DNA from: Cellulophaga sp. HaHa_2_95 | GTDB taxonomy: Bacteria > Bacteroidota > Bacteroidia > Flavobacteriales > Flavobacteriaceae | Direction of reading: 5' to 3' | DNA length: 64,000 bases | Assembly: GCF_019278565.1 (NCBI RefSeq) | Contig: NZ_CP058988.1 | Coordinates: forward strand, 868,001-932,000 | Shown: piece after piece, positions 13,805 to 44,965 of the stretch | Position numbering within the stretch: the first letter of the stretch is position 1 | How the letters are laid out: each line of letters opens with the position of its first letter | Position numbers and translations under genes: made by a program | The notes under the pieces: generated by a model | The model's input: the letters and a program-made list of their open reading frames with translations, nothing else | Told to the model about the DNA's origin: nothing | Database searches by the model: none

Positions 13805-14095
13805 TTACTTTACTTCTACATTACTTTTAACACTCTCTACAAAAACCTTCGCTGGTTTAAAAGAAGGAATGTTATGTGCTGGAATCTTAATAGTTGTATT
13901 CTTTGAAATATTTCTACCAGTTTTTTCAGCTCTTGTCTTGATGATAAAACTACCAAAACCTCTTAAATATACATTGTCACCATTTTCCAATGAATATTTA
14001 ACCTCTTCCATAAAAGATTCTACAGTCGCCTGTACATCTCCTTTTTCAATCCCCAGTTTTTCTGAGATTCTCGTTACAATATCCGCTTTCGTCAT
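13805..14095 (-). CDS. hup: HU/IHF family DNA-binding protein
   Basis: This is a 96-residue histone-like protein. The N-terminal helices (MTKADIVTRISEKLGIEKGDVQ) are followed by the beta-arm signature GFGSFIIKTRAEKTGRNISKN and the arm tip IKIPAHNIPSFKPAK. The conserved Asn-Ile-Pro at the arm tip corresponds to the bending proline of HU. It should bind and bend DNA non-specifically as a homodimer and help organise the nucleoid. It has an excellent promoter core 38 nt upstream and is probably co-transcribed with the small basic gene that follows. Confidence 0.92.
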   Translation of the reverse strand: MTKADIVTRISEKLGIEKGDVQATVESFMEEVKYSLENGDNVYLRGFGSFIIKTRAEKTGRNISKNTTIKIPAHNIPSFKPAKVFVESVKSNVEVK

Positions 14096-35431: not shown

Positions 35432-35479
35432 TGTGTAAATTTTATACATATTTATAGGGAAAAGACACACATATATACA
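35432..35479 (+). promoter_or_regulatory. Upstream activator sites of PepSY-like gene 1
   Basis: TGTGTA-AATTT-TATACA (35432-35448) is an imperfect palindrome of the TGTATA-N5-TATACA type. A second TATACA half-site ends at 35479. Their centres lie 130 and 99 nt upstream of the C of the -12 element, matching the spacing in the other four copies. The sites lie between the DUF4301 stop and its terminator. Confidence 0.65.
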
Positions 35480-35503
35480 TAGTACACCAACATTTAAATT
35501 ATA

Positions 35504-35538
35504 AAAACCTCTGTAAATCAATGATTTACAGAGGTTTT
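35504..35538. terminator. Hairpin terminator after DUF4301, inside the enhancer-promoter spacer
   Basis: AAAACCTCTGTAAATC (35504-35519) pairs perfectly with GATTTACAGAGGTTTT (35523-35538) around AAT. It ends the DUF4301 message and lies between the activator sites and the sigma-54-like promoter of the next gene. Confidence 0.88.
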
Positions 35539-35555
35539 CTGTTTTTGAATGATTA

Positions 35556-35571
35556 TGGCACTATTGTTTCT
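35556..35571 (+). promoter_or_regulatory. Sigma-54-like promoter of PepSY-like gene 1
   Basis: TGGCACTATTGTTTCT fits TGGCAC-N5-TTGCW except that the -13 G is T. The -12 C lies 52 nt before the ATG. All five paralogues share this deviation. Confidence 0.6.
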
Positions 35572-35621
35572 TTATACTAATCGAGTTTAAAAAACAAATG
35601 TAGAATTTAATTACACGATAT

Positions 35622-35927
35622 ATGAAACAGTTAGTATTTGCAACAGCATTAGCCATAGGAAGTTTAGGTACTATAACAGCAACAGAAACTACTCCGATAT
35701 TCCATGATGGTATTATGGAGGGGATATTTGCTCAAGATTTTTCGGAGATAAAGATAGAGGCCTTACCAGAGGAAATTACTGCAGCTCTAGCTAAAAATTT
35801 TCCGGGAGCAACAATTTCTCAAGCTTTTGTAAATGAAGAAGCAGAATATAAATTAATAGTAACCAGCGAGGCTGGGGAAGAAATGGAATTATATGCCGAT
35901 GCCGAGGGGAACTGGTTAGATATGTAA
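35622..35927 (+). CDS. Small exported PepSY-like protein 1 (divergent member)
   Basis: This is a 101-residue exported protein: signal peptide (about 1-20, ending TITATE), then an acidic linker and a single PepSY-like unit (FSEIKIEALPEEITAALAKN, then YKLIVTS, ending LYADAEGNWLDM). It aligns along its length with the four tandem copies downstream but is clearly diverged from them. It shares their promoter and activator-site layout, so it belongs to the same regulon. Such small PepSY-like proteins are periplasmic; function is unknown, and a chaperone-like or inhibitor role in the envelope is only a guess. Confidence 0.8.
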   Translation: MKQLVFATALAIGSLGTITATETTPIFHDGIMEGIFAQDFSEIKIEALPEEITAALAKNFPGATISQAFVNEEAEYKLIVTSEAGEEMELYADAEGNWLDM

Positions 35928-35963
35928 GAATTTGTTAGTAGATAAAGTTAGTTAGTTTGGTTT

Positions 35964-35998
35964 AAAAGGAGTTGCGGGGGCAACTCCTTTTTTTTGTG
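35964..35998 (+). terminator. Terminator after PepSY-like gene 1
   Basis: AAAAGGAGTTGC (35964-35975) pairs with GCAACTCCTTTT (35980-35991) around GGGG, followed by more T residues. Confidence 0.9.
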
Positions 35999-36107
35999 CA
36001 TAAAATTCACTAGCACAAAGGTTTTGGCGTCGCTATTGATTTTCTAATAACACAAATTTTGGTGGAGCGGCAAGTAGTTTATGTTTGCTATCATAGGTAG
36101 TGATTTT

Positions 36108-36154
36108 TGTATACAAATTATACAACAGCTCTTAAGATTACCCAATACTATACA
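36108..36154 (+). promoter_or_regulatory. Upstream activator sites of PepSY-like gene 2
   Basis: TGTATACAAATTATACA (36108-36124) is a perfect inverted repeat with a 5-nt spacer, the best copy in the array. TTACCCAATACTATACA (36138-36154) is the second, half-conserved site, 30 bp further on. Centres are 129 and 99 nt upstream of the -12 C. Confidence 0.7.
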
Positions 36155-36230
36155 GATTGGTTCTTAATGAAAATAATATAAATCACTATAAATCATGTGT
36201 TTAGTGTTTTAAAATCCTGTTTTTGTGTTT

Positions 36231-36246
36231 CGGCATTATATTTTCA
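36231..36246 (+). promoter_or_regulatory. Sigma-54-like promoter of PepSY-like gene 2
   Basis: CGGCATTATATTTTCA has GGCA at -24 and TTTC at -12 with the correct sigma-54 spacing. It ends 48 nt before the ATG. Confidence 0.6.
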
Positions 36247-36293
36247 ATAGAAGTAATAAGTTTAATAATTAATAACACTAAAATATAGATATC

Positions 36294-36599
36294 ATGAAAA
36301 AATTAATTTTAGCATCAGCATTTGCATTTGTAGGTTTAACAGCATTTGCTCAAACAGGAGAAGAAGTAGCAATGGCAGAAACAGCAGTAGTTTCGGCAAC
36401 ACAAGATAGTTTTTCAGAAATTGAAACATCAGCATTACCAGAAGCGGTTTCTTCTGCGGTTGCGACAAACTATCCGTCTGCAACAATTGATAAGGCATAC
36501 GTGAACGATCAAAAACAATACAAATTAGAAGTTTCATTAGAAGACGGTACTTCAGGTACACTATACGCTGATGAAAATGGTAATTGGATTGAAATGTAA
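36294..36599 (+). CDS. Small exported PepSY-like protein 2 (array copy A)
   Basis: This is a 101-residue protein with signal peptide MKKLILASAFAFVGLTAFAQ (cleavage after AQ likely). An acidic stretch and the PepSY-like core follow: FSEIETSALPEAVSSAV, YPSATIDKAYVNDQKQYKLEV, and the tail TLYADENGNWIEM. The core fits the PepSY-like/beta-lactamase-inhibitor-like family (one alpha plus beta-hairpin unit). It should be periplasmic or secreted. First of four tandem near-identical copies. Its expression is probably controlled by the sigma-54 activator encoded just after the array. Confidence 0.82.
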   Translation: MKKLILASAFAFVGLTAFAQTGEEVAMAETAVVSATQDSFSEIETSALPEAVSSAVATNYPSATIDKAYVNDQKQYKLEVSLEDGTSGTLYADENGNWIEM

Positions 36600-36638
36600 T
36601 AATACCCCATAATTATTTTTTATCAATTTAGTTTGTTG

Positions 36639-36672
36639 AAAGGGACTGTATCATATACAGTCCCTTTTTTTG
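36639..36672 (+). terminator. Terminator after PepSY-like gene 2
   Basis: AAAGGGACTGTAT (36639-36651) and ATACAGTCCCTTT (36655-36667) pair around CAT, followed by T residues. Confidence 0.9.
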
Positions 36673-36701
36673 TTTGGAGGGTCCGATAGCATAGTAGTAT
36701 T

Positions 36702-36748
36702 TGGATACATATTATACAATACCCGTAAAGTTTACCCGAAAGTATACA
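36702..36748 (+). promoter_or_regulatory. Upstream activator sites of PepSY-like gene 3
   Basis: TGGATA-CATAT-TATACA (36702-36718) and TTACCC-GAAAG-TATACA (36732-36748). Centres are 129 and 99 nt upstream of the -12 C. The surrounding bases have drifted, yet the half-sites and spacing are kept, which argues for function. Confidence 0.68.
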
Positions 36749-36824
36749 AGCCCGATAGTCTTGTTAAAAACTTAACTATATATAAATCAGTTGTTTATGG
36801 TTTAAAAATCCGATTTTTGTGTTT

Positions 36825-36840
36825 CGGCATCATATTTTCA
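36825..36840 (+). promoter_or_regulatory. Sigma-54-like promoter of PepSY-like gene 3
   Basis: CGGCATCATATTTTCA differs from the copies at 36231, 37422 and 38020 only inside the non-conserved spacer (one T to C). It ends 49 nt before the ATG. Confidence 0.6.
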
Positions 36841-36888
36841 ATAGAAGTACTAAGTTCAATTATAGATAACACTTAAAATATAGATATT

Positions 36889-37194
36889 ATGAAAAAAATA
36901 ATTTTAGCATCAGCATTTGCATTTGTAGGTTTAACAGCAGTTGCTCAAACAGGAGAAGAAGTAGCAATGTCAGAAACAATAGTAGTTTCAGCAACGCAAG
37001 ACAGTTTTTCGGAAATCGAAACATCAGCATTACCAGAAGCGGTTTCTTCAGCGGTAGCGACAAATTACCCGTCTGCAGCGATTGATAAGGCGTATGTAAA
37101 TGATCAAAAACAATATAAAATAGAAGTTTCGTTAGAAGGTGGTACTACAGGTACACTTTATGCTGATGAAAATGGGAATTGGATTGAAATGTAA
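36889..37194 (+). CDS. Small exported PepSY-like protein 3 (array copy B)
   Basis: This 101-residue copy differs from copy A at about ten positions. These include Lys-Ile-Ile in the signal peptide (MKKIILAS), a Ser for Ala in VAMSET, Ala for Thr in YPSAAIDK, and EGGTTGTLY where the others have EDGTSGTLY. The last change affects a beta-turn in the PepSY-like core. The signal peptide, the ALPEAVSSAV helix and the NWIEM tail are kept. It is the most diverged of the four tandem copies in both gene and upstream region, suggesting that the array is not being fully homogenised. Confidence 0.82.
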   Translation: MKKIILASAFAFVGLTAVAQTGEEVAMSETIVVSATQDSFSEIETSALPEAVSSAVATNYPSAAIDKAYVNDQKQYKIEVSLEGGTTGTLYADENGNWIEM

Positions 37195-37235
37195 TAACAC
37201 CAGTAATTGATTTGTATCAAGTTAGTTTGGTTGAG

Positions 37236-37266
37236 AGGGACTGTATTTTATACAGTCCCTTTCTTT
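37236..37266 (+). terminator. Terminator after PepSY-like gene 3
   Basis: AGGGACTGTAT (37236-37246) and ATACAGTCCCT (37250-37260) pair around TTT, followed by a T-rich tail. Confidence 0.88.
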
Positions 37267-37298
37267 TATTTCAGACGTAGTGTAACCTACATATTGTT

Positions 37299-37345
37299 TG
37301 TTTACAAATTATACAGTAGGTCTATATTTTACCCAATACTACACA
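37299..37345 (+). promoter_or_regulatory. Upstream activator sites of PepSY-like gene 4
   Basis: TGTTTA-CAAAT-TATACA (37299-37315) and TTACCC-AATAC-TACACA (37329-37345). Centres are 129 and 99 nt upstream of the -12 C. Confidence 0.68.
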
Positions 37346-37421
37346 GGTTTATTTTTAGCGAAAATAATGTAATACACTGTATATTAGATATTTAATTTTT
37401 TAAAATCCTGTTTTTGTGTTT

Positions 37422-37437
37422 CGGCATTATATTTTCA
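37422..37437 (+). promoter_or_regulatory. Sigma-54-like promoter of PepSY-like gene 4
   Basis: CGGCATTATATTTTCA, identical to the element of gene 2, ends 50 nt before the ATG. Confidence 0.6.
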
Positions 37438-37486
37438 ATAGAAGTAATAAGTTTAATAATTAATAACACTTTAAAATATACATATT

Positions 37487-37792
37487 ATGAAAAAATTAAT
37501 TTTAGCATCAGCATTTGCATTTGTAGGTTTAACAGCAATTGCTCAAACAGGAGAAGAAGTAGCAATGGCAGAAACAATTGTAGTTTCGGCAACACAAGAT
37601 AGTTTTTCAGAAATTGAAACATCAGCATTACCAGAAGCGGTTTCTTCTGCAGTGTCTTCAAACTATCCATCTGCAACAGTTGATAAAGCATACGTAAACG
37701 ATCAGAAACAATACAAATTAGAGGTTTCATTAGAAGACGGTACTTCAGGTACCCTTTATGCTGATGAAAACGGGAATTGGATAGAAATGTAA
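37487..37792 (+). CDS. Small exported PepSY-like protein 4 (array copy C)
   Basis: This is a 101-residue exported protein of the tandem family. It differs from copy A mainly by Ile for Phe before the signal cleavage region (TAIAQ), Ile-Val for Ala-Val after the AET segment, VSSNYPS where copy A has VATNYPS, and Val for Ile in ATVDKAY. The DNA between copies C and D, including terminator and activator sites, is nearly the same, so these two are probably the latest duplication. Same predicted location and core as the other copies. Confidence 0.82.
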   Translation: MKKLILASAFAFVGLTAIAQTGEEVAMAETIVVSATQDSFSEIETSALPEAVSSAVSSNYPSATVDKAYVNDQKQYKLEVSLEDGTSGTLYADENGNWIEM

Positions 37793-37833
37793 TAAGACCA
37801 TTGACAAATTTGTATCACGTTAGTTTGGTTGAG

Positions 37834-37864
37834 AGGGACTGTATTTTATACAGTCCCTTTCTTT
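37834..37864 (+). terminator. Terminator after PepSY-like gene 4
   Basis: AGGGACTGTAT (37834-37844) and ATACAGTCCCT (37848-37858) pair around TTT, followed by a T-rich tail. Confidence 0.88.
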
Positions 37865-37896
37865 TATTTTAGACGTAGTGTAACCTATAGATTATT

Positions 37897-37943
37897 TGTT
37901 TACAAATTATACAGTAGGCCTAAATTTTACCCAATACTATACA
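37897..37943 (+). promoter_or_regulatory. Upstream activator sites of PepSY-like gene 5
   Basis: TGTTTA-CAAAT-TATACA (37897-37913) and TTACCC-AATAC-TATACA (37927-37943). Centres are 129 and 99 nt upstream of the -12 C. Confidence 0.68.
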
Positions 37944-38019
37944 GGTCGGTTTTTGATTAAAAAAATATAAAATACTGTAAATCAGTTATTTAATTTTTTA
38001 AAATGCTGTTTTTGTGTTT

Positions 38020-38035
38020 CGGCATTATATTTTCA
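38020..38035 (+). promoter_or_regulatory. Sigma-54-like promoter of PepSY-like gene 5
   Basis: CGGCATTATATTTTCA, identical to those of genes 2 and 4, ends 50 nt before the ATG. Confidence 0.6.
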
Positions 38036-38084: not shown

Positions 38085-38390
38085 ATGAAAAAATTAATTT
38101 TAGCATCAGCATTTGCATTTGTAGGTTTAACAGCAGTTGCTCAAACAGGAGAAGAAGTAGCAATGGCAGAAACAACTGTAGTTTCAGCAACACAAGATAG
38201 CTTCTCGGAAATCGAAACATCAGCATTGCCAGAAGCGGTTTCTTCTGCAGTCTCTTCAAATTATCCATCTGCAACAATTGATAAGGCATATGTAAACGAT
38301 CAAAAACAATACAAATTGGAGGTTTCATTAGAAGACGGTACTTCAGGTACACTTTATGCTGATGAAAACGGGAATTGGATTGAAATGTAA
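38085..38390 (+). CDS. Small exported PepSY-like protein 5 (array copy D)
   Basis: This is a 101-residue exported protein, last of the tandem copies. It matches copy A closely, with TAVAQ at the end of the signal peptide, Thr-Val after AET, and VSSNYPSATIDK as in copy C. The PepSY-like core and LYADENGNWIEM tail are unchanged. Its terminator lies about 100 bp before the response-regulator gene. The regulator has its own housekeeping-type promoter, so it is not simply read through from the array. Confidence 0.82.
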   Translation: MKKLILASAFAFVGLTAVAQTGEEVAMAETTVVSATQDSFSEIETSALPEAVSSAVSSNYPSATIDKAYVNDQKQYKLEVSLEDGTSGTLYADENGNWIEM

Positions 38391-38429
38391 CAACACCAGT
38401 AATTGATTTGTATCAAGTTAGTTTGGTTG

Positions 38430-38464
38430 AAAGGGACTGTATTTTATACAGTCCCTTTCTTTTT
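38430..38464 (+). terminator. Terminator after PepSY-like gene 5
   Basis: AAAGGGACTGTAT (38430-38442) and ATACAGTCCCTTT (38446-38458) pair around TTT, followed by a T-rich tail. Confidence 0.9.
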
Positions 38465-38543: not shown

Positions 38544-39896
38544 ATGCCTAGAATTTTAATAATTGAAGATGATGCCGCTTTTTGTCAAATGTTACAACGC
38601 TTTCTAACAAAGAAAGGGTATGAGGTAGAGACAAGCTTTACGGCAGAAGATGCTAAACAAAAATTTAAAGTTGGTGCATTTGAAATGGTTATTACAGATC
38701 TACGTTTACCCAATTACGACGGGATAGAATTATTAACAGATATCAAAACAATGAATGCTAAGGTTCCTGTTTTGGTTATGACGAGTTATGCTGAGGTGTC
38801 TACAGCAGTAACTGCGATGAAAAAGGGTGCTTTTGATTATATCTCCAAACCGTTTACTCCAGAAGAGATGGTAATGCTTGTAGAAAATGCATTGGATCAA
38901 AAAACAACGCCGGTAGAAAAAAATGCAGAGCCAAAGGCCAAGGAGTCCCAAGATAAAGTGGAGGTAAGTGCAAGTAACGGTATTAAAGGAATTAGTGAAG
39001 CCTCTAAAAAGTTGCATGAATACATAAAATTGGTGGCGCCTACAGATATGTCTATTCTCATTACCGGAGAAAGTGGTACGGGAAAAGAGGTTACGGCAAA
39101 GTCTATTCATGATACCAGTAAAAGAAAAGGTTTTAATTTTATAGCAGTAGATTGTGGAGCTATCCCAAAAGAGATTGCAACAAGCGAATTTTTTGGTCAT
39201 GTCAAAGGGAGTTTTACCGGTGCTATCGAAGATAAGATAGGTCATTTTGAAGCTGCAAATGGCGGCACACTGTTCTTAGATGAAATAGGAAATCTTTCTT
39301 ATGAAAATCAAATACAACTCCTAAGAGCGCTTCAGGAACGAAAAATTAAAAGAGTAGGGAGTACCAAAGAAATTTCTGTAGATGTTCGTGTTATTACCGC
39401 GACTAACGAAGATTTAGTAGAAGCGGTTGAAAAGGGAACATTTAGAGAAGATTTGTACCATAGGATTAATGAATTCTCTATAGAAACACCTTCGCTGCAA
39501 GAACGTTTTGAAGACTTGCCATTGTTTGCAGATTTTTTCTTAGATAAGGCAAACAAGTCTCTTGATAAACGTGTGATGGGTTTTTCAGATGAGACTACCG
39601 CCGTATTTAAAGCCTATCATTGGCCTGGGAATTTAAGAGAATTACAGAATATTATCAAAAGATCTGTTTTACTTACTACAGGAGATATCATCCAAACAGA
39701 AGTATTACCAAAAGAGCTTTTTGAGGTCAACAAAAAAATAGCGCCCGATAATTTCTCTAAAGATGCTTACGAGAAAGATCAAATTATAAAAGCTTTAAAA
39801 GAAACAAATTTCAATAAATCTAAAGCGGCAAAATTATTGAAGGTTACTCGCAAGACTTTATACAATAAAATTAATCAGTATAATCTGGATTTATAG
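38544..39896 (+). CDS. Sigma-54-dependent response regulator, NtrC family
   Basis: This 450-residue activator has the classic three parts. A receiver domain (1-120) has phospho-acceptor Asp52 in VITDLRLP. The AAA+ domain (about 145-375) has Walker A GESGTGKE at 175-182, GSFTGA at 222-227 (the GAFTGA loop that contacts sigma-54) and GGTLFLDEIG. A Fis-type helix-turn-helix (about 425-450, NKSKAAKLLKVTRKTLYNKI) completes it. It should bind paired upstream sites and remodel sigma-54 polymerase. The five adjacent PepSY-like genes, each with paired palindromes and a -24/-12-like element, are the obvious candidate targets. Confidence 0.95.
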   Translation: MPRILIIEDDAAFCQMLQRFLTKKGYEVETSFTAEDAKQKFKVGAFEMVITDLRLPNYDGIELLTDIKTMNAKVPVLVMTSYAEVSTAVTAMKKGAFDYISKPFTPEEMVMLVENALDQKTTPVEKNAEPKAKESQDKVEVSASNGIKGISEASKKLHEYIKLVAPTDMSILITGESGTGKEVTAKSIHDTSKRKGFNFIAVDCGAIPKEIATSEFFGHVKGSFTGAIEDKIGHFEAANGGTLFLDEIGNLSYENQIQLLRALQERKIKRVGSTKEISVDVRVITATNEDLVEAVEKGTFREDLYHRINEFSIETPSLQERFEDLPLFADFFLDKANKSLDKRVMGFSDETTAVFKAYHWPGNLRELQNIIKRSVLLTTGDIIQTEVLPKELFEVNKKIAPDNFSKDAYEKDQIIKALKETNFNKSKAAKLLKVTRKTLYNKINQYNLDL

Positions 39897-42339
39897 TCTT
39901 ATCGGCTCTCAAAGCTAGGGTAAGCGCTATAACATAATTTTTAAGTTGCTGGTATTTTGCTTTAAGCTCTTTATCACTTAGCTCATCGCGTTTAAGTTTT
40001 TCAAAAGATTCAAGGATGGTGATGGCATCTGTAGCCTCTAATTGTCTAAACATAGCAAGCATTTTATGAGACGTAGCATTTATTTGTGCCAGATTTTTAG
40101 TGCTTGTTGCTTTGTTTAAGATTTCAATGTTGTCCTCTGTATCTCTTAAAAAAGTGTCTATCAGGTCTTTCAGCCCTTCATTAGAATCATCTAAAAATGA
40201 TGTAATAGTTTTTAAACTAAATAAAGTAGACTTGCTTTCGTGAATTTGTATTTCTTGTTCTTTTTCTTTTAAGATTATTTCTGGAAATAATTGTGCTAGA
40301 CGCCCTAAAAACTGATCTTTAGAAAAAGGTTTCTGTAAAACGGTATCAAAACCAGCGGTACTGTAGGTAGAAGTTTCTAAATCCTTTCTTCCCGTCATGG
40401 CAAGAATAGGTTGTTTATTGTAATGACTGTAACGGCCACTCTTCAGCTTTTCTAAAACTTCAAAACCATTTATTGTCGGCATTTGTATATCCGTAAGAAC
40501 CGCACTATATGTTAGATTTTCTTTAAGGCCGATAGCATTGAAATCAGCGTAAGAAATAGTATTGATATTAGAGCTTTCACAAACCTCATGCAGTAATTTT
40601 CGCATCGCAATATCATCATCTATAATCAATAACGTGATTTTATTTTCTTCAAAGTTGATTTCCTTTTTTTCTGATGAAGCAATTTGCGTTTCGGATAACT
40701 TTAAAGGAATCGTAAACGTAAATGTGCTCCCTTGATCTTTATCACTTTGCAATCCTATATTACCTTGGAGTAATTCTGTTAATTTTTTTGAAATTGTTAA
40801 CCCTAAGCCATAACCTCCGTATTTTTTTTCTGTACTGTCGTCAGCTTGCGTAAATTCTTTAAATATATGCTCCTGTTTCTCTTTTTCAATACCAATACCG
40901 CTATCTATAACCTGTATTCTTGTTTTGTATAGGGTGTTGTTTTCAATAGTTACTGTAGCCACAACTTTTATAAAACCTTCTTGGGTAAACTTGTAGGCAT
41001 TGCTAATAAGGTTGGTTAAAATTTGTCGGATCCTAAAGGGGTCACCTATTAGTGTTTGGTGTAGTTTCTTATCAATGACAATCTGAAGCTCTATAGGTTT
41101 GTTTTTATATAATTCTTCCAGGTTTTGTGCGGTTTCCTGAATCAAATCTGGTAAAAGAAAAGGAATGTTCTCTATCTTTAATTTGCCCGCTTCAAGTTTT
41201 GAGAAGTCTAACAAATCATTCACTAAATTATCTACATAAGTGGCTGCAGATTTTACATTTTTTAGATAGCCAACTTGTTTACCGGTTAAGCCTGTGTTTT
41301 CCATCAATTCAGAATAGCCCGTAATGGTATTTAATGGAGTTCTTAAATCATGGCTCACGGTAGAAATAAGTTGTTCGCGACTTTTTAAAAGCGATTCAGA
41401 AAATTTCTTTTCTTCTTCCAAATGCTGACGATAAGTTTGCACACGCCAATAATCTCTAGTGATTAAAAATGTAAAGATGCCAACCGTAAGAAATGCGAGT
41501 ATTGCCGCGCCGCTTGCTAACCGAGTACTTCGTTTTAAAATTTCTTGTTTTTTTAAATTATCCGCGTGAGTTGCGGCAATAATTTCCTGTTCAAAGGCGC
41601 TTACAATACTTCTTAATTGTTGCGATAAATCTAAATCGTTCTGGTTAATTTCTCGCTCCTTATCAGCTAATGCACGCTGTGTTAAGGCATCTTTTTCTTT
41701 GGCTTCATTTAGTAAGTTTCTTGAAGCATTTATAATGGAATCTATTTTTTCAGGACTATGGTTTTCTTTTGGGGCATTGTCATTTAAGATGAGCGCAAGC
41801 TTTTCAATAACACTTTTGGCTTTCGGAGATAATTCATCAATATTCGGTGCAATACTTTTGGCAGTAATTTTACCCAATGAAAGTTCCATCGTATTAAATT
41901 TTGCTAGAGCAACATCTAAAGAACTATTGGCTTCGCTTTTTAGTTTTAATCGCCTTAATTCTTCGTTGTTATAGGTTTTTAATTTCAAAAGATTCTGTAC
42001 GCTATCTAAAAGCTGCACTTGATAATCGCTAGTAACTACTTCCTTTAGTGAGTCTATTTCTGCAGAAACGACATCAATTTTTTTAGCATATGCCGTAAAA
42101 TTCTCTTTGGTTTTGGTCTGTAATGCTAATTTAGATAAACTTTCAGCCTCATAAAGTTGGGTTAGTAAAGAGCCCGTTTTAATAAACTTTACATCATTCT
42201 CACCAGAAGTATCTGTAGCAAGGTAACTCTTAATCTCTGATAGGATGAAAATTCCAGAAATAACCGCCAAACCTACTAGTATTAAATAGCTTAATACAAT
42301 TCTGAAGGTGAACTTGTTTTTAGATTTATTTTTTTTCAT
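39871..42339 (-). CDS. Hybrid histidine kinase with receiver and HPt domains
   Basis: This is an 822-residue sensor from the ATG at 42339; a TTG 13 codons upstream is also in frame. Order: membrane helix, a long helical periplasmic sensor (about 35-265), a second membrane helix (about 275-295), HisKA with His330 in VSHDLRTPLN, and HATPase (GYGLGLTISKKL). A receiver with Asp617 in VLTDIQMP and a C-terminal HPt with His758 in SHKMLAMF follow. Signal flow would be His-Asp-His and then to Asp52 of the convergent NtrC-type regulator. The 3' ends of the two genes overlap by 26 bp. The sensor domain resembles a four-helix bundle; its ligand is unknown. Confidence 0.92.
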   Translation of the reverse strand: MKKNKSKNKFTFRIVLSYLILVGLAVISGIFILSEIKSYLATDTSGENDVKFIKTGSLLTQLYEAESLSKLALQTKTKENFTAYAKKIDVVSAEIDSLKEVVTSDYQVQLLDSVQNLLKLKTYNNEELRRLKLKSEANSSLDVALAKFNTMELSLGKITAKSIAPNIDELSPKAKSVIEKLALILNDNAPKENHSPEKIDSIINASRNLLNEAKEKDALTQRALADKEREINQNDLDLSQQLRSIVSAFEQEIIAATHADNLKKQEILKRSTRLASGAAILAFLTVGIFTFLITRDYWRVQTYRQHLEEEKKFSESLLKSREQLISTVSHDLRTPLNTITGYSELMENTGLTGKQVGYLKNVKSAATYVDNLVNDLLDFSKLEAGKLKIENIPFLLPDLIQETAQNLEELYKNKPIELQIVIDKKLHQTLIGDPFRIRQILTNLISNAYKFTQEGFIKVVATVTIENNTLYKTRIQVIDSGIGIEKEKQEHIFKEFTQADDSTEKKYGGYGLGLTISKKLTELLQGNIGLQSDKDQGSTFTFTIPLKLSETQIASSEKKEINFEENKITLLIIDDDIAMRKLLHEVCESSNINTISYADFNAIGLKENLTYSAVLTDIQMPTINGFEVLEKLKSGRYSHYNKQPILAMTGRKDLETSTYSTAGFDTVLQKPFSKDQFLGRLAQLFPEIILKEKEQEIQIHESKSTLFSLKTITSFLDDSNEGLKDLIDTFLRDTEDNIEILNKATSTKNLAQINATSHKMLAMFRQLEATDAITILESFEKLKRDELSDKELKAKYQQLKNYVIALTLALRADKTINPDYTD

Positions 42340-42519
42340 GGCTGTAAGTGACCTATGGTAATTACGTTCTTTTTTCAAAAAAAGTTGGTGTTTAAGATGT
42401 TAAATTAGTACTAATAGACGTAAAGTTACTAGGTGTTGTTTAAAAAAGGCATAATTGAGCTGAAATAGTTAAGCTTTTATTTTTTTATGCTATTTAGGGC
42501 TAATTAAGAAATACGATAC
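42340..42519. other. Intergenic DNA upstream of the TPP riboswitch
   Basis: This AT-rich stretch separates the histidine kinase from the riboswitch-controlled receptor. I see no gene, no TGTATA-type palindrome and no clear promoter for the kinase. Confidence 0.5.
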
Positions 42520-42530: not shown

Positions 42531-42630
42531 CATCTCAAAGGGGTGCAAAATTCTAAAATTCGTTTTTAGAACGTAGCTGAGATTATACCCAATGAACCTG
42601 GGCGGGTAATGCTGCCAAGGGACGCGTACA
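42531..42630 (+). ncRNA. TPP riboswitch (THI element)
   Basis: The conserved aptamer blocks are all present and in order: AAAGGGGTGC (42537-42546), GCTGAGATTATACCC, AATGAACCTG, and GGGTAATGCTGCCAAGGGA. A variable arm, with TTCTAAAA and TTTTAGAA pairing, lies between GGGGTGC and GCTGAGA. Downstream (42634-42663) two mutually exclusive hairpins can form, CTTTTCG/CGAAAAG and CGTAATTT/AAATTACG, a possible expression platform. There is no T-run, so I cannot tell whether control is transcriptional or translational. Thiamin pyrophosphate should repress the receptor gene that follows. Confidence 0.93.
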
Positions 42631-42748
42631 TCACTTTTCGTAATTTTGCGAAAAGAAATTACGCTACATTGTATGTTTATTTTTAAACCGATTACCAAAC
42701 AAACAAAAAGAGTAATTGCCCCTTTTATTCGTCACTTAATATATACGA

Positions 42749-44965
42749 ATGAAAATTATTTTCACAGTACTTTCCGTTTTAAGCATTAGTTTTTATACCA
42801 ATGCACAGCAACAACAGGCTACAGATTCTTTAGAGGGAAAAAAGGTGGTTTTAGATGAGGTTTTTGTATCTGCAATCCGAGTAACGAAAGCAACTCCTGT
42901 TACTTTTTCAAACTTAACCAAAGAGCAAATAAAGCCAAGAAATTTAGGGCAAGATATTCCAATTTTAATGAACTTTTTACCCTCTGTAGTGACCACATCC
43001 GATGCTGGTGCTGGTGTAGGGTATACGGGTATTCGTGTTCGTGGTAGTGATGCAACTCGCGTGAATGTCACCATAAACGGAATTCCTTATAACGATTCAG
43101 AATCTCATGGAACATTTTGGGTAAACATGCCAGATTTTGCTTCTTCTACAGAGAGTTTGCAATTACAACGTGGTGTTGGTTCTTCTACGAATGGGGCAGG
43201 AGCTTTTGGGGCAAGCCTTAATGTACTTACGGATGCTATTTCTCAAGATGCTTATGCGCATATTTCTTCTTCTATAGGGAGTTTTAAGACCTTAAGAAAT
43301 ACCTTGAAATTTAGCACTGGTTTACTAAATGATCAGATAGAAATATCTGGAAGACTATCTCAAATTAATTCCGATGGGTATATTGATAGAGCAACATCAG
43401 ATCTGGAATCTTACTTTTTGCAAGCTGCTTATAAAGATGAAAATACGTTGATAAAAGCACTGCTTTTTGGGGGGCATGAAGTTACGTATCAGTCTTGGTA
43501 CGGTACACCACTTGCTAGAATAAATAATGATGAACAAGGAGTAGAAGATTTTATTGTTGCTAACGGACTTACAGAGAGCGAAGCAGAAAACTTAAGAAAT
43601 TCTGATCGTAGGTATAATTATTATACCTATGAAAATGAGGAAGATAATTACAAGCAGAATCATGCGCAGTTGTTATGGAATGAAACTTTAAATGAGAATT
43701 GGAGTACCAACTTAGCGCTACATTATACGAAGGGAAGTGGTTATTTTGAGCAATTAAAAGAAGATGATGATTTTGATACCTATGGTTTTACCCCAATTAC
43801 GGTAGACGGAGAAGAAGTAAATAGTACGGATGTAATTCGCAGACGCTGGCTAGATAATGATTTTTATGGGACTGTTTTTTCGGCCAACTACAGAAAAGAG
43901 AAAGTAGATTTAATTCTTGGTGGCGGCTGGAACAAATATGAAGGAGATCATTTTGGAGAAGTTATTTGGGCAAGGTATGCAAGTACTAGTAGCATCAGGG
44001 ATCGGTATTATGATGATAACTCTACTAAGACCGACTTTAATATTTTTTCTAAAATAAATTATAAATTAGATGATCAATGGAGTCTTTTTGGAGATTTACA
44101 GTATAGAACAGTAGGTTATCAAGCCAATGGTGATGATACGGGAATAGTAGATGATACCTTTAATTTCTTCAACCCTAAAGCGGGGATTACTTTTGATTTG
44201 AACTCAAATAATAATTTTTATTTCTCCTATGCTGTAGCGAATAGAGAACCAAATAGAAATGATTATGAAAGTGGTAACCCAAAACCAGAAAGGCTAAATG
44301 ATTTTGAGTTGGGTTGGCGTTATATTTCTAATACACTGCAATTAAATACCAACGTTTATTACATGGGGTATAAAGATCAGTTAGTGTTAACTGGTGCCTT
44401 GAATGATGTTGGTGCTCCATTGAGAGAAAATGTAGGTGATAGTTATAGATTAGGAGTAGAAGTAGAGGCTAATGTTTCTTTGGGTGCTAAATTTGCCTTC
44501 AGACCAAATATTACCTTAAGTGCAAATAGGAATAAAGATTTTGTATTTCAAAGAGATGGCGAATTGCAAAACCTTGGGGATACAGAAATAGCATTTTCAC
44601 CAAGTGTAATAATTGGCGGTGCATTGGTATACATGCCTACAGATAATTTGCAATTATCACTGTTAGGGAAGCATGTAGGAGAGCAATATATGGGCAACAT
44701 AGATGCTAGTAGCTCTAAATTAAAAGCTTATTCTCAGTTTGATTTTAATGTACAATACGAAATTGTTACCAATTCGTTTATTAAGAGTGTTGTGTTGTCT
44801 GGTCTGGTGAATAATATTTTCAATGAACTATATGAGTCTAATGGCTATTTTTTTACTTTTGATGACACATGGTCTAATCCAGGGGTAACAACCACAATAG
44901 AAGGGGCAGGTTACTACCCGCAAGCAGGAACAAATTTCTTGGTAGGGGCAACTTTAAATTTCTAA
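42749..44965 (+). CDS. TonB-dependent receptor, predicted thiamin uptake
   Basis: This 738-residue outer-membrane receptor has a signal peptide to YTNAQ (about 19 residues). The plug (about 35-160) has LDEVFVSAIRVTKATPVTFSNL, LPSVVTTSDAGAGVGYTGIRVRG and FGASLNVLTD. The barrel ends with a phenylalanine (FLVGATLNF). There is no carboxypeptidase-D-like N-terminal domain. The TPP riboswitch just upstream gives the assignment: it should import thiamin or a precursor and be shut down when TPP is plentiful. This matches riboswitch-controlled OMP-type thiamin receptors known in Bacteroidota. The inner-membrane partner could be the PnuC-like protein at 32718. Confidence 0.88.
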   Translation: MKIIFTVLSVLSISFYTNAQQQQATDSLEGKKVVLDEVFVSAIRVTKATPVTFSNLTKEQIKPRNLGQDIPILMNFLPSVVTTSDAGAGVGYTGIRVRGSDATRVNVTINGIPYNDSESHGTFWVNMPDFASSTESLQLQRGVGSSTNGAGAFGASLNVLTDAISQDAYAHISSSIGSFKTLRNTLKFSTGLLNDQIEISGRLSQINSDGYIDRATSDLESYFLQAAYKDENTLIKALLFGGHEVTYQSWYGTPLARINNDEQGVEDFIVANGLTESEAENLRNSDRRYNYYTYENEEDNYKQNHAQLLWNETLNENWSTNLALHYTKGSGYFEQLKEDDDFDTYGFTPITVDGEEVNSTDVIRRRWLDNDFYGTVFSANYRKEKVDLILGGGWNKYEGDHFGEVIWARYASTSSIRDRYYDDNSTKTDFNIFSKINYKLDDQWSLFGDLQYRTVGYQANGDDTGIVDDTFNFFNPKAGITFDLNSNNNFYFSYAVANREPNRNDYESGNPKPERLNDFELGWRYISNTLQLNTNVYYMGYKDQLVLTGALNDVGAPLRENVGDSYRLGVEVEANVSLGAKFAFRPNITLSANRNKDFVFQRDGELQNLGDTEIAFSPSVIIGGALVYMPTDNLQLSLLGKHVGEQYMGNIDASSSKLKAYSQFDFNVQYEIVTNSFIKSVVLSGLVNNIFNELYESNGYFFTFDDTWSNPGVTTTIEGAGYYPQAGTNFLVGATLNF

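Follow-up and report, generated by a model that had tools for sequence, protein, structure and literature searches.

What controls five tandem genes for small, apparently exported proteins that lie beside the gene of an NtrC-type response regulator in Cellulophaga sp. HaHa_2_95? The window analysed here, a stretch of 64,000 nucleotides (contig NZ_CP058988.1 of assembly GCF_019278565.1, positions 868,001 to 932,000), is part of a 4.54 Mb genome (G000). It contains five open reading frames (ORFs) of 101 aa between a DUF4301 gene and the regulator gene, all on the forward strand (Table 1), and the regulator gene is convergent with that of a hybrid histidine kinase. Among named genomes the closest regulator is that of Cellulophaga baltica, at 96 % identity, in a comparison from which the strain's own record was possibly left out. 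A preliminary description of this DNA had proposed that the regulator controls all five genes through sigma-54. Sequence comparisons suggest that the locus is very probably a locally encoded sigma-54 regulon, in which a phosphorelay drives the transcription of periplasmic PepSY-like proteins.

Promoter architecture of the five genes

All five genes are preceded by a dyad, a second site and a sigma-54-type core, as had been described. Re-measurement placed the dyad centres 130, 129, 129, 129 and 129 nt upstream of the C of the core (genes 1 to 5) and the centre of the 17-mer of the second element 99 nt upstream in each gene. The core comprises 14 nt with sigma-54 spacing and reads GGCA-N7-TTC (GG-N10-TC) in five of five genes, not GGCA-N9-TTC as first given, and the distance from its C to the A of the ATG is 52, 49, 50, 51 and 51 nt. 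The second element is a half-site and not an inverted repeat, because its left half agrees with TGTATA at only one of six letters in all five genes; its right half matches at 6, 6, 6, 5 and 6 of six. The pair of dyads previously likened to NtrC sites is thus one dyad followed by in-phase half-sites. The TATACA or TACACA half-site lies 93.5 nt upstream of the core C in all five genes, and a TACCCA in the same orientation stands 10 bp before it in genes 2, 4 and 5 (TACCCG in gene 3 and GACACA in gene 1). When the whole genome was scanned with a strict pattern (two TATACA 23–26 apart, then the core), four matches were obtained, all at this locus, and none with the pattern read backwards; the one gene of the five that is not matched has TACACA.

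Each gene is followed by a terminator-like hairpin and, for this reason, resembles a separate cassette with its own promoter and terminator. Proteins 3–5 are 92–96 % identical to protein 2, and protein 1 is 39 % identical to it. Because genes 2–5 are near-duplicates, the five promoters are not independent, and a set of 54 promoters was assembled, five from the window and the rest from 33 loci of relatives; promoters scoring below 15 or incomplete were removed before half-sites and integration host factor (IHF)-type sites were counted. The 54 promoters contained 176 half-sites (TA[C/T][A/C]CA and complements) versus 35.6±6.2 (maximum 55) in 200 Markov-shuffled sets, a comparison in which the rows are related by descent and kinship lies outside the shuffle model. 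Half-sites concentrate at about −135, −124, −104 and −94 relative to the C, and fewer gather around −114 and −82. Among eight periods tried the phasing was best at 10.5 bp, a descriptive figure since the rows are related. The array looks as if a dyad and, two and three turns further on, half-sites shared one face of the helix.

An alignment of 48 promoters revealed a further conserved stretch between enhancer and core, near TAAANNNCTGATAATCAGNNNTTTA, each half of which fits the IHF consensus, WATCARNNNNTTR. A perfect match was present at −72 to −34 in 25 of the 54 promoters, versus 0.47±0.72 (maximum 4) in 300 shuffles, and in none of the 54 in the neighbouring control window from −110 to −73. 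With at most one mismatch, 44 of the 54 promoters had a match (9.1 in shuffles), and with one promoter taken per locus a perfect match was found in 15 of 34. Two HU/IHF-family genes are present in the genome, one of them at 13829–14095 of the window, and an IHF/HU-type protein would bind between enhancer and core. The IHF-type site, the hybrid kinase and the terminators of the single genes are additions to the preliminary description.

Association of promoter and regulator in relatives

The regulator carries receiver, sigma-54 activator and Fis-type helix-turn-helix (HTH) domains, all over the Pfam cut-offs. It is encoded by one of four strong sigma-54 activator genes in the genome, in which rpoN has one clear match (E 3e-51). 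At E≤1e-100 it was found in 48 of 149 family genomes (HaHa_2_95 included), 47 of them at 56–100 % identity and one at 42 %. Besides the window, 47 loci were fetched: in 40 (36/40 plus 4/7) PepSY-like ORFs precede the regulator in the same orientation, and in 43 a hybrid kinase gene follows it on the opposite strand; the loci without the kinase gene include the 42 % relative and one at a contig edge. Among 80 named loci, a core with at least two half-sites was found in 68 and PepSY-like ORFs in 73; these loci share genomes with the 47-locus set, and some stop short upstream.

A sequence-only profile, R1, was derived from 48 promoters (six of the 54, with fewer than two half-sites, were left out) and run on 47 regulator-bearing genomes (HaHa_2_95 included) and 47 regulator-lacking genomes of the same family. 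At E≤1e-4 it matched in 40 of the regulator-bearing genomes and in none of those lacking the regulator, where the best match reached 4.3e-4. The figure for genomes without a row in the profile was 10 of 17, the match in one of these ten (G144) possibly being that of a different activator. The best natural experiment is seen in G050, in which the regulator and kinase lie on contig C5 while a DUF4301 homologue (67 %) and a PepSY-like gene lie on C1, with the promoter kept before the latter; it appears that the genes moved and the promoter went along. The relatives give independent, comparative support for control of the PepSY-like genes by this regulator.

Beyond the family, a survey of 198 genomes of the class showed the regulator, at about 48–53 % identity, in 18 that belong to other families. 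Seven of these loci, taken with 1.5 kb flanks, held one PepSY-like ORF upstream and no promoter by core score. R1 matched at E≤0.01 in seven of the 18 genomes; clear PepSY-like ORFs follow R1 matches in G220, G228 and G321, and in G228 and G321 these stand before the regulator. From these matches the module appears to extend past the family, patchily.

The kinase sensor region of the window protein had no Pfam match; a weak CHASE3 match was present in 3 of 50 members and absent from the window protein. A model of this region (49 of 56 relatives used) is all-helical with a predicted TM-score of 0.43. Its best Foldseek match was McpS (E 0.004, TM 0.31), with the TorS sensor at rank 16 (TM 0.25) and no Foldseek match below E 0.001; the modelled likeness to McpS and TorS is a lead only.

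The PepSY-like proteins and the signal

All five ORFs have signal-peptide-like starts, as judged by eye. The structure model of protein 2, from an alignment that left out 11 of 75 non-redundant relatives, is confident over residues 41–100 and shows a helix plus sheet. Its best matches in the PDB, by sequence and by fold, were 3DUE and 3DB7 (phmmer E 0.0013 for 3DUE). The top five Foldseek matches were all putative periplasmic Bacteroides proteins, 3DUE being named DUF2874; their probability was 0.91–1.00, but TM was 0.38–0.44 and E at least 0.026. The window proteins resemble the PepSY_like/DUF2874 family (PF11396; 3DUE, 3DB7) in the signal-peptide-like start and the helix-plus-sheet domain; they have one domain, whereas BVU2987 is described as a tandem domain pair (PMC2954215). 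For the 3DUE family, inhibition of a partner was proposed in the same source.

One alternative concerns the signal. The wiring could be the same and the signal iron, haem or another metal instead of envelope stress, with the PepSY-like proteins serving that response. Reports on other Bacteroidota point this way: the PepSY-like BT0922-BT0923 of Bacteroides thetaiotaomicron are given as rising about 2–5 fold on iron depletion (PMC10434189), a PepSY gene as falling in a Bizionia iron-regulator mutant (PMC9478572), and a DUF2874 protein as part of a haemin-related two-component locus in Porphyromonas (PMC3764172). Against this, the matches followed in trans were RND efflux operons, PepSY-like genes, a glycosyltransferase and gdh-type loci, in an analysis that made no systematic search for iron or haem genes. 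A signal of this kind is considered unlikely and, if correct, leaves the wiring unchanged.

Further candidate targets and other sigma-54-type promoters

R1 also matched at places remote from the regulator. In G080 (two), G030 (two), G094 and G073 these matches lie before additional PepSY-like genes, which reach a profile E of 7e-27 or better. Others stand before the adaptor gene of an RND efflux operon in G117, G094 (with a poor core) and G089; the adaptors of G117 and G094 are confirmed by Pfam, and the adaptor of G089 and the pump genes were named by eye. Four weaker or partial matches (G023 C1:1486357, G121, the third of G080 and one of G001) had no clear target.

A further group of matches bears on whether the real sites are served by another sigma-54 activator, the neighbouring regulator being coincidental. 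The genome has three other strong activator genes, one of them by gdh, and carries a TGTGTA/TATACA array before a family-2 glycosyltransferase gene (L162) with a TGGTACG-N4-TTGC core at a different spacing. R1 matches in G117 (C19), G144 and G027 likewise have TTGC-type cores, with TGGGTA-type sites near gdh or near a 120-aa protein that is a weak match to the PepSY profile (E 9e-5 and 9e-4); these may belong to another activator. However, the PepSY-like gene, promoter and regulator are kept together across genera, no promoter match at E≤1e-4 was found in the 47 genomes lacking the regulator, and the TTGC cores by gdh and heat-shock genes are unlike those of the PepSY regulon. Control by a different activator is improbable.

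The pattern TTGGCA-N6-TTGC showed no enrichment by number in the genome (six matches versus seven backward). It carries weight because four of the six fall between genes; of these four, three precede grpE, dnaK and lon (identified by eye from translations) and one is beside another activator gene. The cores before grpE, dnaK and lon (L117, L118 and L119) probably form a sigma-54 heat-shock regulon, and sigma-54 control of heat-shock genes in Bacteroidota agrees with predictions in PMC12316311. Two of the three cores have TGACA/TGTCA-type repeats close upstream. Separately, another NtrC-type activator near gdh is accompanied by a canonical core and a small Cys-rich ORF (L116, L120 and L169), and in G027 a comparable small ORF, accompanied by TGGGTA-type sites, precedes gdh.

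The -12 box and the weight of the evidence

The letters of the −12 box were counted in 115 promoters, after cores scoring below 15 or with fewer than two half-sites had been left out and with a core score that mildly favours T at that position: 86 were TTTC, 11 TTCC, 6 TCTC, 5 TCCC and 7 others. The G of this box is held to be nearly essential at sigma-54 promoters; here it is gone in 113 of the 115 and kept in two. Outside the family there are three clear PepSY promoters: one (G220, core TGGCATG-N4-TTGC) has TTGC and the other two have neither TTGC nor TTTC; from this distribution the TTTC form may be a derived feature of the regulon within the family. The activator loop is GSFTGA in the window regulator and in 44 of the 47 relatives, the other three having GAFTGA. 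Co-variation of GSFTGA with TTTC was ruled out, G142 combining GAFTGA with TTTC and G220 GSFTGA with TTGC cores. TTGGCA-N6-TTTC had 30 matches in the genome versus 10 for the backward pattern. As a general sigma-54 core of the genome TTTC was rejected: 26 of the 30 matches lie inside ORFs of at least 120 aa, and only one falls in the 260 nt ahead of an ORF, that of an ompH-like gene.

If the core were instead a primary-sigma promoter in the form proper to the phylum, acted on from the upstream sites, the missing −12 G and the GSFTGA loop would fit, but this is highly improbable: GG-N10-[T/C]C spacing stays fixed across the relatives' promoters while flanks diverge, the G220 gene has TTGC at the same spacing, the regulator carries a sigma-54 domain, and the primary-sigma consensus, as judged by eye, does not seem to fit these cores.

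Several observations weigh against a sigma-54 regulon of PepSY-like genes run by this regulator and kinase. None of the 115 promoters has TTGC, all carrying TTTC or a related −12 box. Seven of the 47 loci are without a PepSY-like ORF upstream, and R1 finds nothing at E≤1e-4 in seven of the 47 genomes that bear the regulator: G087 and G022 have none at E≤0.1, and the matches in G111, G031, G100, G041 and G053 are weaker. Outside the family R1 reached E≤1e-4 in only three of the 18 regulator genomes (G220, G194 and G321). The two genome groups of the R1 comparison differ in lineage, so its result is an association and not proof; promoters and genes also share descent, and their conservation is partly inertia. 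The Hpt match of the kinase is weak (E 0.052), and its partnership with the regulator is probable, as judged from gene neighbourhood. The PF11396 (PepSY_like) scores of 17.8–26.8 bits lie under the cut-off of 28.3 and no fold match of the protein model reaches E 0.001; because of these scores and weak fold E values, the proteins are termed PepSY-like and not assigned to PF11396. The proposed control of the five genes by the regulator through sigma-54 is well supported by the regulator's domains, rpoN, the tracking by R1 and G050; the paired dyads did not stand, and the −12 box is TTTC and not TTGC.

Table 1. Positions in the window of the PepSY-like genes, their predicted promoter elements and the adjacent regulatory genes
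Feature	Position	Strand	Basis
PepSY-like exported protein 1 (101 aa)	35622..35927	+	ORF, Pfam
PepSY-like exported protein 2	36294..36599	+	ORF, Pfam, structure model
PepSY-like exported protein 3	36889..37194	+	ORF, Pfam
PepSY-like exported protein 4	37487..37792	+	ORF, Pfam
PepSY-like exported protein 5	38085..38390	+	ORF, Pfam
Gene 1 enhancer dyad TGTGTA-N5-TATACA	35432..35448	+	
Gene 1 downstream half-site TATACA	35474..35479	+	
Gene 2 enhancer dyad	36108..36124	+	
Gene 2 direct half-sites TACCCA and TATACA, 10 bp apart	36139..36154	+	
Gene 3 enhancer dyad	36702..36718	+	
Gene 3 half-site TATACA	36743..36748	+	
Gene 4 enhancer dyad	37299..37315	+	
Gene 4 direct half-sites TACCCA and TACACA	37330..37345	+	
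Gene 5 enhancer dyad	37897..37913	+	
Gene 5 direct half-sites TACCCA and TATACA	37928..37943	+	
IHF-type site, perfect WATCARNNNNTTR, gene 1	35516..35528	+	
IHF-type site, one mismatch, gene 2	36191..36203	+	
IHF-type site, perfect, gene 3	36785..36797	+	
IHF-type site, one mismatch, gene 4	37382..37394	+	
IHF-type site, perfect, gene 5	37980..37992	+	
Sigma-54-type core GGCA-N7-TTC, gene 1	35557..35570	+	
Sigma-54-type core, gene 2	36232..36245	+	
Sigma-54-type core, gene 3	36826..36839	+	
Sigma-54-type core, gene 4	37423..37436	+	
Sigma-54-type core, gene 5	38021..38034	+	
Terminator-like hairpin between gene 1 enhancer and core, after DUF4301 gene; contains IHF-type site	35504..35538	+	
Similar hairpins after genes 1–4	35964-35991, 36638-36668, 37233-37263, 37831-37861		
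Terminator-like hairpin, gap between gene 5 and regulator	38429..38459	+	
NtrC-type response regulator (receiver, sigma-54 activator with GSFTGA loop, Fis-type HTH)	38544..39896	+	
Hybrid histidine kinase (HisKA, HATPase, receiver; weak Hpt match), convergent, probable partner	39871..42378	-	

Elsewhere in the window, positions 42560–42640 resemble the consensus of a thiamine pyrophosphate (TPP) riboswitch, before a TonB-dependent-receptor-like gene at 42749 (named by eye). An Rfam search at gathering scores gave no match anywhere in the window, including this stretch.

Proposed mechanism and significance

The module, its sites, their spacing and their co-occurrence are established by sequence and by comparison among genomes. 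The use of sigma-54, the kinase partnership, IHF binding, the signal and the role of the proteins are inferred, and from known families sigma-54 dependence, phosphorylation by the kinase and looping via an IHF-type bend would be expected. In the proposed regulon, the membrane hybrid kinase would sense a condition of the cell envelope, and phosphate would pass from His to Asp, to the weak Hpt-like end of the kinase and on to the NtrC-type regulator. The phosphorylated regulator would then assemble on the dyad and the in-phase half-sites, at about −141 to −105 when +1 is placed 12 nt downstream of the C. With the DNA from enhancer to core bent by an IHF/HU-type protein, the AAA+ ring would open sigma-54 polymerase at GG-N10-TC. 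Because each closed cassette has its own promoter and terminator, gene duplication would multiply output. The exported one-domain proteins would probably bind and hold back a partner in the periplasm. An envelope protease is plausible in this part, as is the kinase itself, which would give feedback; both the envelope signal and this inhibitory or feedback role are speculative. A further step is doubtful, namely that the lineage-wide, nearly uniform loss of the −12 G weakens closed-complex binding and makes transcription fully dependent on the dedicated activator and the IHF-bent loop, and that the PepSY-like proteins feed back on the helical sensor of the kinase with a tunable gain set by cassette number.

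The wiring follows textbook lines, unlike the targets and the −12 box. As in NtrC-family two-component sigma-54 regulons, a regulator with receiver, AAA+ and Fis-type HTH domains is combined with sites upstream of a GG-N10-C core and an IHF-type site between them, but here PepSY-like proteins of the periplasm are targeted, a single dyad is combined with in-phase half-sites, the −12 box is mostly TTTC and the partner is probably a hybrid kinase. ZraSR-ZraP of E. coli and Salmonella is alike in layout only, in that a sigma-54 response regulator activates a neighbouring gene for a small periplasmic protein. That protein, ZraP, is not PepSY-like, and zraP is divergent from zraSR, whereas one to five tandem genes and a hybrid kinase are found here. 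The sigma-54 regulon predictions for Bacteroidota in PMC12316311 also place genes of Flavobacteriia, heat-shock genes included, under sigma-54, and the term PepSY does not occur in its main text. No description of this regulon was found in the literature searched, in which subscription journals were mostly absent and supplements lay outside the scope.

For the PepSY-like (DUF2874) proteins, those who described them proposed only an inhibitory role (PMC2954215). With one kinase, one regulator and one promoter type tied to these proteins, their function would become testable. The regulon also supplies many naturally occurring sigma-54-type promoters whose −12 box is unusual, alongside TTGC ones in the same genome.

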